From: Trametopsis cervina
Taxonomy: Eukaryota; Basidiomycota; Agaricomycetes; Polyporales; Irpicaceae
DNA length: 32,801 nt
Direction of reading: 5' to 3'
NCBI GenBank assembly: GCA_022385755.1
Contig: MU278360.1
Coordinates: 733,216-766,016, forward strand
Part shown: positions 6,765 to 23,663 of the stretch, in pieces
How positions within the stretch are numbered: the first letter of the stretch is position 1
How the letters are laid out: every line of letters begins with the position of its first letter
Translations under genes and position numbers: made by a program
Notes under the pieces: model-generated
Told to the model about the DNA's origin: nothing
Databases searched by the model: none
The model's input: only the letters and a program-made list of their open reading frames with translations

Positions 6765-8459
6765 ATGATGGCGTTACTCCTTTGTCTTCTTAAATTCGTC
6801 TCACTGGCGACGCTCGTACGAATTACGTCTGCAGAGTCCATACCACTTGTGCGCGTTCCGCGCCAACAGCCATCCCCGGCGGTCTTGTCGGTCAACAGCA
6901 ATATATCGGTCTCGGATAACGATGGCTTGTGAGTTAATTCGTTGGTTCCATCATGATTTGCCTCACCTCCTCCCCGCTACTGCAGCGCGTATCTAGCGAA
7001 AATGAAGTACGCATTGGTAATGTTCCTCAGTCAAGTCATCGGCTAACACTTCACCGTCAGTATCGGGGCACAGGACTTCATGATGCTCCTCGATACAGGA
7101 TCATCTGACTTGGTACGTTTTCTGTCCATCATCCCTGAATATGAGTGCTGACGGACTATCAGTGGGTAGTATCTTCTGAATGTGAAGATGCAGACTGCGG
7201 GAAAGTCCCCACATACAAATCCTCTCCGACACTTAATTCCACCTCCACTCAGTTTCATCTTGAATACCTCATGGGCGCGGTTTCTGGCGCAATCGGCACA
7301 GAAACAATATCACTGGGATCTTTTGAAATTATTTCTCAAGCATTTGGTAGGTCGGAAATATAATTCCTATGCCGAGGGTATGCCACTCAATTTCCCTTCA
7401 GCAATGGCGAACCAGACGGAAGGCTTAGGCCTCGCTGCTACAGGCAACAGCGGCATCCTTGGACTTTCATTTCCGTTCGAGGCTTCTATTCCAGATACCT
7501 CCGGCGCAACTGTGCTTGAGAATCTGCTCATGCCATTCAACGATTCAGACCGCTACATTGCCATCAAGCTAGGAAGGGACGGCTCGAACTCATCATTCAC
7601 TATCGGGGAGCTCGATTCTACATTCGCCAATTCGACAAGCGAACTCACGTTCACTGCTGTTACGCCTTTCGCGGGAGACGTTTACGATTACTGGAAGATG
7701 CCGCTGCAGTCTCTCACCATCAACTCAACAACGTTTCCCTTGTCTAATTCTGGTGTCCCGGGCGCGTCGACGCCTATTGCAGTCTTCGATACTGGCACAA
7801 CGCTTATTTTGGGCCCTGCCGACGATGTTGAGAGGTTCTGGATGTCTGTCGGTGCTTCCAGGAAGACGGATGAAGGCTGGCAGGTTCGATGTGACCGGGG
7901 CATGAGCGTAGGCTTTGTCCTCGGACAAGGTTCAACCCAGAAGGAGTACAATATCGACCCTGAAGACCTAAGCTGGATGCGCGGCGGACGAGACGGCGAG
8001 TGGTGTATGGGCGGTGTGCAGGCCAACGATGACGTGAGCATTCACGGGTTATTCCATGCTTCTGCCAGCCTGATTGCACTTTCTTCCAGGTGTCCTCTGG
8101 AGACTGGCTTCTGGGCGACACTTTCCTGCGAGTAAGGTACACAGTACCTAGACTATATTATTGACTAATCTACTTTCCAGAACGTGTACATTGTTCACCA
8201 CGCAGCAACGGGGTCTGAGCCACCCCAAGTGGGATTGTTAGGTCTGACAGACCCGGCCGCGAGCATGCAGAACTTCCGATTGATACGAGGCGAAGACCCC
8301 ACCGGTCCTGTTCCGGTCCTGACAAACACGACGCAGCACTCACACGGCTTGTCAGCTGTAGCAATATACAGCATATCAGGTGCATCAGGCTTTGCGTTCG
8401 GGGCAGTGCTCACTGTCATCATTTATCTATACATCGATAGGAGAACAAGTAAATATTAA
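6765..8459 (+). CDS. pepsin-type (A1) aspartic protease with C-terminal membrane segment
   Basis: Seven exons (6765-6928, 6986-7006, 7061-7112, 7163-7346, 7402-8033, 8090-8131, 8181-8459) join to 1374 nt, 457 aa. A hydrophobic signal peptide (MALLLCLLKFVSLATLV) opens the protein. The first catalytic motif is DTGSSDLW with Asp73, and the second is VFDTGTTLILG with Asp270; both are intact. WLLGDTFLR is the usual late A1 block. NxS/T sites are frequent, as expected of a secreted glycoprotein. Residues about 424-448 form a transmembrane helix followed by a short basic tail (DRRTSKY), so the enzyme is probably anchored at the cell surface or in the vacuolar pathway rather than freely secreted. There is little room for a long propeptide before the catalytic core. 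Two adjacent ATGs (6765, 6768) could start. Confidence 0.93.
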
Positions 8460-14999: not shown

Positions 15000-15974
15000 C
15001 TACGTTTTCCTCAACAGCTGCGCGAAGCCTCCAGCCTTCTTGATCGCACGCGTGAGCTGGCCCGCAGTCCGCTGCGCAGCATTCAGCTTTCTATCCCTAG
15101 CCATTGCTTCCACATCTTTGCCATACTTCTCTACCAGTCGTTGAAGCACGCCGAGTTCTCCGTTCGAGGAAAATCGGGGCACCGCACCCGTGTCACTTTG
15201 TGAAAGCTGCTCCAAACCTAAACAATGCATGGTGATTGCGCCAAGAGGTTAAATATCCGGTATTCATTCAGCACGGACACGTTGATTGACGTCGATAGCG
15301 GACTCACTTTGCACCACGTGTGTACTCGACGCGACAGATCCGTCTCGAGGTACATTGGAGCTTCCAAGATTGACCCACCCAGATAGGCTGTCTTGTTGTG
15401 ACGGATCAGGGATGGCGTCTTCAATTAGTCTCTCCGCAGGCGCAGTGCTTTGCTCGTCGTCCTCGGGGAGAACGACGTCTACGATATTGCCGTTTTCGTC
15501 ACGGATGATCCTACCAAAGCCCCTGCGAACGCCGCTGGGACCCGCAGCATTCCCCGCGGAACCTTCTGGCGTGCTTTCGACTTCCATCCTCTCCGATGTC
15601 GCGATGCGTTCTTCACCTAATGGCCGCTCCACTCCTCCAGACGCTGTCGGTGTGAGTGATGCTGCAAGCCCGAGAGCTTCGTAGCTGGCCGGAGATGGGC
15701 AATGAACTAATATCAGCAGCAAGAACGCAGCCGTCCCAGAATTCAGACGTACTTTTGCCGTACTGTCTTCATTCTGTCCCACGAATCCTGCAACACTTTA
15801 GGGCCACGGATAGCTAGAACAGAAGTACGGTGTGAACATGACAGCCGCAAACGGATGCCAGTGTGTGGGTCACCAACGGGGTTGCTTCTTCAGAATTTTC
15901 TTTGCTCTCCTCGAATGATGCACGGGAGTGTGCGAGCTTGAGCGCATTTTTCGTCGTTGTCTCGGGTTGGCCAT
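15000..15974 (-). CDS. NOP16: ribosome biogenesis protein Nop16
   Basis: Four exons (15878-15974, 15753-15813, 15308-15684, 15000-15217) join to 753 nt, 250 aa. The start MANPRQRRK and the block RRAKKILKK then PPIRGPKVLQDSWDRMKTVR is the Nop16 signature, followed by NYEALGLAASLTPTASGG. The C-terminal block EKYGKDVEAMARDRKLN and QRTAGQLTRAIKKAG is also diagnostic. The central part is acidic and variable. Nop16 is a nucleolar factor in pre-60S ribosome assembly. The basic N-terminus fits nucleolar targeting. It starts 248 bp from QCR10 and may share a promoter with it. Confidence 0.95.
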
Positions 15975-20628: not shown

Positions 20629-23600
20629 ATGCCTCTGCCCAAACAAATCCCTATCCCGTACCCTCCAAATGCAGACTATGCACACCAGGCGTACGAGGTC
20701 CCTGGCACGAAGAGACCGGGGCAGACAGGCAAGTGACGCAGTGCCTCGATTTCTCGTGTCTTTTCACTTAACATTAATGTATGAACAGGCCACTATCGTC
20801 ACAGTACGTGTTTGTCTCCAGAGATAGCTCTAAGACATGTAACAGAGCCTCTATGACGCAGGTGCATTCCCGCTATTGACGATGGAGTCGCCTGACACGA
20901 TGGTGAACATGGTCGAGTTCTTCGACTCAGGCCTGCAGCGCTTGCCCTCGCGAGATGAGCCCTTGTTTGGTAGACGCCCTGTGTTGTCCCGGAATCCGCT
21001 GAAGTTGGCGAACTACTTTGAGTGGATAAGTTGGGATACGGTCGACCATCGCCGGAGATATGTGGGGAGCGGTTTGCGCAAGTTGTTCAACGATGGAGTG
21101 GGTAAGAGCGGCGAGCTAGACATCGTTGGTATATACAGCGGTAACTGCCCAGGTGAGTTGTCACAGTGTGCGGTGGAGTGGCGCGGGGATAGGACTAAAT
21201 TTACGGGGCTGGGGATGCAGAATGGCAGATCGTGGACATGGGCATACAAGCATACGGCTTTGTGTCGGTTTGTCTGTATGACACGATGGGCAAAGATTCC
21301 GCAGGCATGTTCATTCCTCAACTTTACACATCGGATCAGAGAACTAACGATCGTGATTCTTAGAATATATGTATGTTCCGCCCAAATCCCAATAACGCAT
21401 CTAACCACGTATCTTGAAGCATTAACCACGTCGAAATGAGTGTTTGCGCGTGCGCGCCGGCGCAAGTGACGACCATGTTGAGGATGGCGGCGGCCTCAAA
21501 GATACCGACTATAAGGTGTATCATCTCAATGGACCCTCTTCCTACCGAGGAAATGCAAGTACTTGCTGCATGGGGCCAGACGCTGGGTATCAAAGTAATT
21601 GATCTGCCTGAACGTACGTGATTCACTTGGACAGGCAAGAGTCGACACTCATATACGTCCTGTATATAGTCGAGAGGATCGGAAAGGAGAACTTGAAGAA
21701 CATTACTTACCCTCAGAAGAACGATGTTGCAACTATTTGCTACACATCCGTAAGTGTTCCAGCATATACAGTCAACCGTCTGGGATTAATTGGAACACAC
21801 AGGGTACAACAGGAGTACCCAAAGGTCAGCTAAGACGGTGAATCGCTGCAAGGCTTTGAAGCTGACTACAGACAGGCGTTGTCATGTCGCATGGCTTGGT
21901 CGCCAACTCCATCCACGCGCAGGTTCACGGAATCGAAACCGATGCAAGACCAACAGCGATCGGGTTCCTCCCGCTTGCGCATTGCTACGGAGTTAGTGCT
22001 CTGCCGTAAATACTGCATAGTGACTAGTTCTCATCCGAGATCGTTTTCTTTTCTTCAGCGCATGTGCGACGGAACCGTTATCTCAGCCGGAGGGCGCATC
22101 GGATACTGGTCAGGCGACCCATTGCTCCTACTGGAAGATCTTCAAATCCTGAAACCCAACTCGTTCTACGCGGTCCCGCGTGTCTTGAACCGAATCGTCC
22201 AGGCGGGGATGGCAGCTACGACTCTGCCAGGTCTCAAGGGAGCCTTGTTCAGACATGCTCTCCAAGCCAAACTGGACAGATTCTACGCGACAGGTGATGT
22301 CACTCACCCGCTATGGGACCGACTGGTCTTCAAGAAGGTCTGTTTGAGTGCATTTTGCCTTTAAGCTATCGATCTGCGGTTCTGACAATACGTACAGGTC
22401 CGAGCTGCAATCGGTGGTAACGTCGTCATGATAACATCTGGCTCTGCGCCCATGACGAAGACGGCTGTTGACTTCATCAAGGTGGCGCTTAGTGTAGTGT
22501 ACATCGAAGGTGAGCTCCCGTTATGTTCCCCTGGTCCTTCATGTCACTGATTCGCGCGTCACGACATCTAGGGTGAGCTTTTGAAATGGATTGCCATCTA
22601 CGTCATGGAACACTGACCGATATGGGTATGTTCTAGCTACGGCGGGACCGAAAACATGGGCACGGCTACGCGACAATGGTGGTCAGACAAGGACGCTGGC
22701 GGAACTGTCGGCCCACCGCAGCCTTGCGCCGAAATCAAGCTCATCGACGTACCCGCCATGGGCTACACTTCCGAGGACAGGCCCTATCCGCGTGGCGAGA
22801 TATGCGTGCGTGGTGACATGTGCTTCACGCATTATTATAAGGGTATGTCGGACGGCGTCCCTTGGCTGAGCGGCTGTTAATCATTACTATTTGACCTAGA
22901 TGAGAAGAACACAAAATCCGCCATTGACGAAGAGGGCTGGCAACATACTGGGGATGTTGCGCACATCGACTCGGTCGGACGTCTGACCATTATCGACCGG
23001 GTGAAGGTAAAGTCCATACTTGCTTCCCTCCTACGCAGCGCGCTCATTGTCACACCTGAATTCTAGAACATCATGAAGCTCTCCCAAGGAGAGTATGTGG
23101 CAATCGAACGAATTGAGGCATTGTACACCGGCACTCCGACCGTCCTGCAAATATACGTGCACGGAGACTCGCTCCAATCCTACCTCATTGCCGCCGTCAT
23201 TCCCGACCCCGCTGCACTCGCAGAGCTTGCCTCCAAGATCTGGAAAAAGAGTGTCTCGCCTACAGACGCTGCAGCGCTAGACCAAGCTATCAAAGAGCCT
23301 GCAGTGTACGAACATTACATGACCGTACTCAATGCGCAAGGAAAATCTGCTAGTTTGGCTGGGTAAGCCGTTACCTTTGTTCACTGACTTAATACGCGCA
23401 TCCTGACCGTTGCGGATTTTGCGCCTTAGGTTTGAGATGGTGAAGCGCATTCACCTCACGAATGACTTGATGTCGATCGACGACGGCTGCCTTACGCCAA
23501 CGATGAAGATCAAGCGGTCAGTATCATCATGTTCCTATATCTCCTCGCGGCTGGCACTGAGTCTTCATCGTATTACAGGAAGGATGCATACACTAAGTAC

Positions 23601-23663
23601 AAGGCTGAGTTGGACGCACTGTACAGTCTCCCGGAGCCGACGTCCAAGCCAGCCAAACTCTGA
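20629..23663 (+). CDS. long-chain fatty acid-CoA ligase (acyl-CoA synthetase), PTS1 ending
   Basis: Seventeen exons give 2100 nt, 699 aa: 20629-20728, 20789-20807, 20848-21152, 21221-21304, 21364-21370, 21420-21613, 21670-21749, 21803-21824, 21876-21991, 22059-22337, 22398-22509, 22572, 22637-22842, 22900-23006, 23067-23362, 23430-23516, 23579-23663. It activates fatty acids with ATP and CoA. Motifs: [13 protein letters not shown] at the N-terminus, AMP-binding [11 protein letters not shown] 261-271, [15 protein letters not shown] 439-445, [25 protein letters not shown]. The C-terminus PAKL ends in AKL, a PTS1 variant, so a peroxisomal beta-oxidation role is likely. Introns 1 and 4 start with GC, exon 5 is 7 nt, and exon 12 is a single base completing Gly440. 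The intron-2 borders are ambiguous (another donor lies at 20804); the version given keeps phase. Confidence 0.93.
22572..22572 (+). other. putative single-nucleotide exon of the acyl-CoA synthetase
   Basis: The base G at 22572 lies between two ordinary-looking introns: 22510-22571 (gtgagc...ctag, 62 nt) and 22573-22636 (gtgagc...ctag, 64 nt). It supplies the middle base of the Gly codon in the invariant EGYG motif. Without it the downstream frame is lost. The alternative is a weak donor at about 22518 that would insert three residues (ELP) into the motif. Confidence 0.75.

Follow-up and report, generated by a model that had tools for sequence, protein, structure and literature searches.

Can a single nucleotide serve as an exon in a fungal metabolic gene? 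The question is raised by a short interval within a 32,801-nucleotide stretch of Trametopsis cervina DNA (contig MU278360.1, positions 733,216 to 766,016, from GCA_022385755.1, an assembly of 59 contigs and 29.4 Mb), referred to here as the window. In this interval, the base G22572 is flanked by two sequences that each look like a complete intron. Very probably, G22572 forms a coding exon of one nucleotide, used constitutively, between two ordinary GT-AG introns that are removed successively by intron definition. The anatomy, the frame, the alternative splice forms and the protein models of relatives were examined directly, and from these we infer the actual splicing and its order, the constitutive use and the presence of the same DNA structure in relatives. 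It would be the smallest possible exon, found in a mushroom metabolic gene and probably conserved across several orders.

The gene and its reading frame at G22572

Exon-by-exon reconstruction of the gene gave a coding sequence of 2082 nt in 17 exons, encoding 693 amino acids with no internal stops (Table 1). The product matched PF00501 with 215.3 bits, against a gathering cut-off of 29.9, and thus contains a predicted AMP-binding domain. By this match and by the names of its relatives, it is a putative long-chain acyl-CoA synthetase. The closest named relatives among the matches listed were proteins from Cytidiella melzeri (70% identity, covering the full query) and Irpex rosettiformis (69%), both of which belong to the Irpicaceae in the Polyporales. 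The protein ends in PAKL, and we take the terminal AKL to resemble a peroxisomal PTS1 signal, making a peroxisomal location putative. Elsewhere in the window, an open frame at 7182–8135 matched the aspartyl protease family PF00026 (56.9 bits), and another, at 15264–15782 on the minus strand, matched the Nop16 ribosome biogenesis family PF09420 (44.3 bits).

The gene has 16 introns: the pair around G22572 and 14 others of 49–68 nt, two of which are of the GC-AG type. Several of its other exons are also short (Table 1).

Table 1. Features of the acyl-CoA synthetase gene, in window coordinates (slashes mark exon–intron borders or codon interruptions).
Feature	Position	Strand	Description
Long-chain acyl-CoA synthetase gene (AMP-binding enzyme), putative	20629..23663	+	Exon-by-exon reconstruction, PF00501, match to relatives
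GC-AG intron	20729..20788	+	Donor GCAAGT
Short exon	20789..20803	+	15 nt
GC-AG intron directly 5' of exon 5	21305..21363	+	Donor GCATGT
Exon 5	21364..21370	+	7-nt microexon AATATAT, from the reconstruction; codon 164
Short exon	21803..21824	+	22 nt
Exon 11	22398..22509	+	Ends GAA G, phase 1
Intron 11 (first of the pair)	22510..22571	+	62 nt; GTGAGC...CTAG; branch-like CTGAT at 22547–22551
Exon 12 (predicted)	22572	+	One base, G, in the middle of the Gly434 codon (G/G/C); from the frame and AG/G/GT
Intron 12 (second of the pair)	22573..22636	+	64 nt; GTGAGC...CTAG; branch-like CTGAC at 22613–22617
Exon 13	22637..22842	+	Begins C TAC GGC GGG ACC GAA: remainder of Gly434, then YGGTE

Given the end of exon 11 and the start of exon 13, the frame demands exactly one base between them. 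G22572 sits between TAG and GTGAGC, with the sequence AG/G/GT occupying positions 22570–22574, and the join 22509–22572–22637 reads GAA GGC TAC, restoring the EGYGGTE motif. Intron 11 is in phase 1 and intron 12 in phase 2. Each has a complete donor, a branch-like site, an acceptor and a normal length, and the A of the CTGAY element lies 21 nt (intron 11) and 20 nt (intron 12) before the end of the intron. The first-pass annotation had proposed this arrangement, and its coordinates, lengths, phases, borders and both branch-like sites were re-derived without change. Its central claim, that the frame requires the single base G22572 and that this base makes the Gly of EGYGGTE, is well supported by the reading frame, by the splice signals and by the comparison with relatives described below. 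The residue number has to be corrected, as the full 693-residue model makes this residue Gly434 rather than Gly440.

The splice signals of the pair were ordinary rather than outstanding. The donor of intron 11 scored 7.3 and its acceptor 6.0, compared to 4.9–10.0 and 2.5–7.6, respectively, in the 14 other introns, while the donor (6.1) and acceptor (3.9) of intron 12 were inside the range for the gene, close to its low end; the matrix was built from only those 14 introns, which were scored with themselves included, and therefore flatters them.

Gene models of relatives at codon 434

Relatives were pooled from three protein searches, taking the best 120 of each, which yielded a sample of 190 of the closest proteins, consisting of 158 genome-derived gene models and 32 transcript-like rows. 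After alignment, indels were counted position by position within windows of four residues. At codon 434, an indel was present in 62 of the 158 genome-derived models and in none of the 32 transcript-like rows (Fisher p = 1.4e-6, a value that treats related species as independent and so overstates their independence). At no other position of the protein did indels in genome-derived models exceed those in transcript-like rows by so much. All 32 transcript-like rows had the Gly without an indel, in the context EGYG (31 rows) or QGYG (one row). Gene predictors falter exactly where the present gene requires a one-base exon, and transcript-like sequences have no irregularity there.

Codon 434 is not the worst internal position by raw counts, which were exceeded at codons 64–68 and 187–191 as well as at the ends of the protein. 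At these two internal sites, the length differed in 150–158 of the 158 genome-derived models and in 29–32 of the 32 transcript-like rows, and they are apparently lineage-specific indels of this protein, inside exons 3 and 6. Around the remaining introns, to a distance of two codons, the largest counts ran from 1 to 11 of 158, leaving aside introns 4 and 5 on either side of the 7-nt exon. The next-largest excess away from the protein ends was at codon 164 (28/158 versus 0/32), the site of the 7-nt exon 5, and for this reason exon 5 is probably also conserved and misannotated in relatives. Indels were also seen at codon 45 (20/158 genome-derived versus 0/32 transcript-like), where the acyl-CoA synthetase gene has no intron.

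Of the genome-derived rows, 96 had no indel; these read EGYG in 88 cases and EGWG in three, with one each of TPYG, EGES, LRYG, EGYA and EGAG; the eight indel-free rows with a motif other than EGYG were left out of the anomalous count. The intact EGYG models, 88 of the 158, count against a shared one-base exon. They include that of Irpex rosettiformis, the second-closest relative listed, and may represent genes with a single intron, with no intron, or with a correctly modelled one-base exon. Two models in the sample, P0072 (Amanita inopinata) and P0178 (Phellinidium pouzarii), carried EF-hand domains in addition to the AMP-binding domain, possibly because neighbouring genes were fused by annotation.

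The shape of the errors was examined in the 62 anomalous models. One extra residue was present in 26 of them, 25 of which read EGxYG, with T as the commonest x (seven cases). This pattern would arise if the predictor shifted the first donor four bases downstream to the GT within donors resembling GTACGT or GTGAGT, since four equals one modulo three, and the extra T would be compatible with the donor GTACGT. Nine rows lacked three of the four motif residues and five lacked two; the remaining rows had 2 to 20 extra residues. An insert followed by GYG was found in four of the 62. In Panaeolus cyanescens, Termitomyces and Pisolithus marmoratus, the inserts were 19, 17 and 15 residues long, corresponding to 57, 51 and 45 nt, and all three start with a Gly that permits GGT and end with a Pro that permits CCA ahead of G. 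All three match a layout of GT, branch (CTNAY) and YAG, followed by G and then YG, a layout that is fitted by about 1.5% of random segments, or about 15% when Gly is imposed at the first position. These three models (two from the Agaricales and one from the Boletales) appear to have the first intron of the pair translated up to the same G and the second removed. The fourth, P0077, has a four-residue insert that does not fit the layout and was rejected as a case of intron read-through.

The spread over orders covers the named, looked-up rows among the 62 with an indel. These came from the Polyporales (Cytidiella, Phlebiopsis), Boletales (Pisolithus), Agaricales (Panaeolus, Termitomyces), Russulales (Stereum), Jaapiales (Jaapia) and Gloeophyllales (Heliocybe; Gloeophyllum trabeum looks normal). 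No indel at codon 434 was found in the small sample of six Hymenochaetales rows, which include Rickenella and Sanghuangporus and one of which reads EGYA; the order was checked for three of the six, and the other three presumably belong there.

Because of the indel excess at codon 434 and the three apparent read-throughs, the one-base exon, as read from the protein models of relatives, is probably old in the Agaricomycetes and often misannotated. It seems likely, if less firmly so than the exon itself, that it predates the split of the Polyporales, Agaricales, Boletales and Russulales, survives in many of their genomes, and is the cause of the motif errors in the AMP-binding domain of about 40% of the sampled public models. 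Public gene models would then contain a systematic error with a known cause, and a predictor permitting one-base exons would fix it.

Alternative readings of the interval

Foremost among the alternatives, although improbable, is a single non-canonical intron of 126 nt, running either from 22510 to 22635 (GT...TA) or from 22511 to 22636 (TG...AG), with the internal AG/G/GT left unused. Such an intron would give an mRNA and a protein identical to those of the one-base model, so that neither the frame nor reads from mature mRNA can discriminate between the two. However, it needs a non-canonical border despite the presence of normal-scoring, normally spaced canonical sites and two branch-like sites exactly there, and it would be about twice as long as the longest of the 14 other introns of the gene. 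The three models of relatives that seem to read through just the first intron of the pair, ending in YAG/G, are likewise a better fit to two introns. We also searched for sites comparable to the observed one, with thresholds set at the observed scores and requiring AG/G/GT and, on both sides of it, an intron of 45–80 nt that contains a CTRAY element. There were none among 64,814 other 127-nt stretches on both strands of the window (overlapping and therefore not independent) and none among 20,000 dinucleotide-shuffled copies of the interval. When the branch requirement was dropped, 36 of the 64,814 stretches and five of the 20,000 shuffles qualified. By both the stretch and the shuffle tests, a chance occurrence of AG/G/GT inside one intron is unlikely.

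Canonical splice forms were enumerated from GT or GC donors at 22440–22649 and AG acceptors at 22500–22679, allowing either one intron of 40–220 nt or two introns of 40–120 nt each, no more than 60 nt apart. This gave 27 open, in-frame forms, five with a single intron and 22 with two. EGYGGTE was kept by the one-base exon form and by none of the 26 others. The one-base form scored 23.3 bits, the next two-intron form 13.1 bits and the best single intron 7.1 bits; the last (22499–22636) loses four residues ahead of YGGTE. A single canonical intron is thereby dismissed as very improbable; one example would run from 22520 (GTTATG) to 22636. This example had been named in the first-pass annotation as the alternative that would insert ELP into the motif; the insertion stands (EGELPYGGTE), while the donor is at 22520 instead of about 22518. 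The form is open and in frame, but its donor and acceptor together reach only 1.6 bits, and the lack of any indel at the motif in the transcript-like relatives (0/32) speaks against a single canonical intron in general.

Runs of G are places where long-read assemblies may slip, and a further alternative is an assembly error in the GGG run at 22571–22573, with a true sequence that differs by one base. We regard this as barely credible: the run is just three bases long, the assembled length exactly meets the demand of the frame, the 601-base stretch around G22572 matches one place in the assembly, and the same codon troubles the gene models of relatives too. Equally slight is the chance of a stwintron, in which one intron is nested in a splice element of another and the order of removal is fixed: short back-to-back introns in a fungus bring to mind the stwintrons described in ascomycetes, which share with the present pair two adjacent introns and consecutive removal, but those are nested with a split splice signal (PMC5639578), whereas neither intron 11 nor intron 12 breaks a splice element of the other and both sets of signals are intact.

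Splicing, precedents and origin of the intron pair

For short introns, intron definition is the generally accepted mode of removal. As two back-to-back, complete GT-AG introns, introns 11 and 12 would each be recognised in this way and would leave one after another, because the acceptor of intron 11 and the donor of intron 12 are too close for simultaneous binding. The order of removal would be free, with either intron first, since an exonic AGG is present at the donor of intron 12 both before the removal of intron 11 (22570–22572) and after it (22508, 22509 and 22572). Stepwise splicing of the pair, as suggested in the first-pass annotation, is plausible. Omission of G22572, by joining the donor of intron 11 to the acceptor of intron 12, shifts the frame, which then runs into a stop in exon 14 (codon 531). 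Inclusion must therefore be efficient, or else the transcript is wasted, and the fidelity of splicing at this base would decide whether the enzyme gets made. Intron definition for short introns and sequential removal around a one-base exon have been argued for Arabidopsis (PMC4674806). In a human MPC1 minigene, exons cut to one base, and even to none, were still spliced (PMC9929638), so that one base would be no barrier in principle.

One-base exons were said in the first-pass annotation to be very rarely reported. This is correct, yet earlier cases exist. Among them is a coding gene from a fungus with matching geometry, CYP621A of Fusarium, whose one-nucleotide exon was presented as the first in any gene of a fungus (Nelson and Syed 2026, PMC12940212). 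The exon described there also has AG/G/GT, placed on the middle base of a Gly codon that belongs to a conserved motif, likewise leads from phase 1 to phase 2 in what looks like a single intron of about twice the usual length, is also associated with wrong gene models, and is conserved in many species (PMC12940212). CYP621A differs in being an ascomycete P450 supported by RNA reads, while the present exon belongs to a basidiomycete acyl-CoA synthetase and is predicted from sequence; the CYP621A exon is described from Fusarium species, whereas the present one would be common to several orders (PMC12940212). The predicted exon adds to the known one-base coding exons and repeats the AG/G/GT in a Gly codon seen in CYP621A. 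If the exon is indeed ancient, one-base exons would tend to recur at the middle base of Gly codons (G/G/N), as a G there is favourable to the acceptor side and the donor side alike.

Coding exons of one nucleotide are also known in plants, in APC11 (PMC4674806) and in APC11 and VPS55 (PMC8831610), where they are conserved in land plants and, as in the present gene, are needed for the frame and were missed by annotation. In Arabidopsis APC11, unlike here, the base is an A, the upstream intron is about 330 nt long, and the base was mutated as a test (PMC4674806). Single-base exons between introns were described in 2016 in fungal snoRNA host transcripts of Candida, with a G in cluster II; those transcripts are non-coding and have no reading frame at stake (PMC5033589). 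The P450 genes of the white-rot basidiomycete Phanerochaete chrysosporium similarly combine small exons with short introns, the shortest reported microexon being 6 bp (two amino acids) compared to one base here (PMC1184071). A single-base-pair exon is reported from a placozoan mitochondrial gene (PMC5436844), and the term is also used in a paper on Ophiostoma mitochondrial genomes (PMC12308204). Within the open-licence literature searched, as far as the accessible texts go, we found no one-base exon in any basidiomycete, which is not proof of priority, and a search for microexons in fungal acyl-CoA synthetases matched only work on fatty acid synthesis in oleaginous fungi.

Both donors carry the eight bases ggtgagct, at 22509–22516 and 22572–22579, as had been pointed out in the first-pass annotation, where the second intron was suggested to have arisen by local duplication. 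That suggestion was not supported: 592 of 2000 shuffles that kept the splice ends scored at least as high, and beyond those ends the pair is no more alike than shuffled introns. Introns 11 and 12 had the top global score among the 120 intron pairs of the gene, but by just 8.5 versus 8.0, and ranked third locally. A possible origin is given by the rescue model of Nelson and Syed, in which one exon base is lost and a cryptic intronic AGGGT is then used (PMC12940212). If relatives span the pair, one intron and none, they would form a natural series for studying the origin of one-base exons and one-base intron shifts.

Among other adenylating-enzyme loci in the same genome, the motif is uninterrupted in L018 and L021 (QGYGMTE) and in L038 (SGYGMSE). 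In the paralogous acyl-CoA synthetase on contig C15 (L028), the same Gly codon holds just one intron, 58 nt long and in phase 1, at 357086–357143 (CAAG/gtaagt...acag/GTTAC), which also favours the one-base reading of the present gene. Because of this lone intron in one paralogue, the phase-1 intron of the present pair may have come first, and the second may have been added later, one base downstream.
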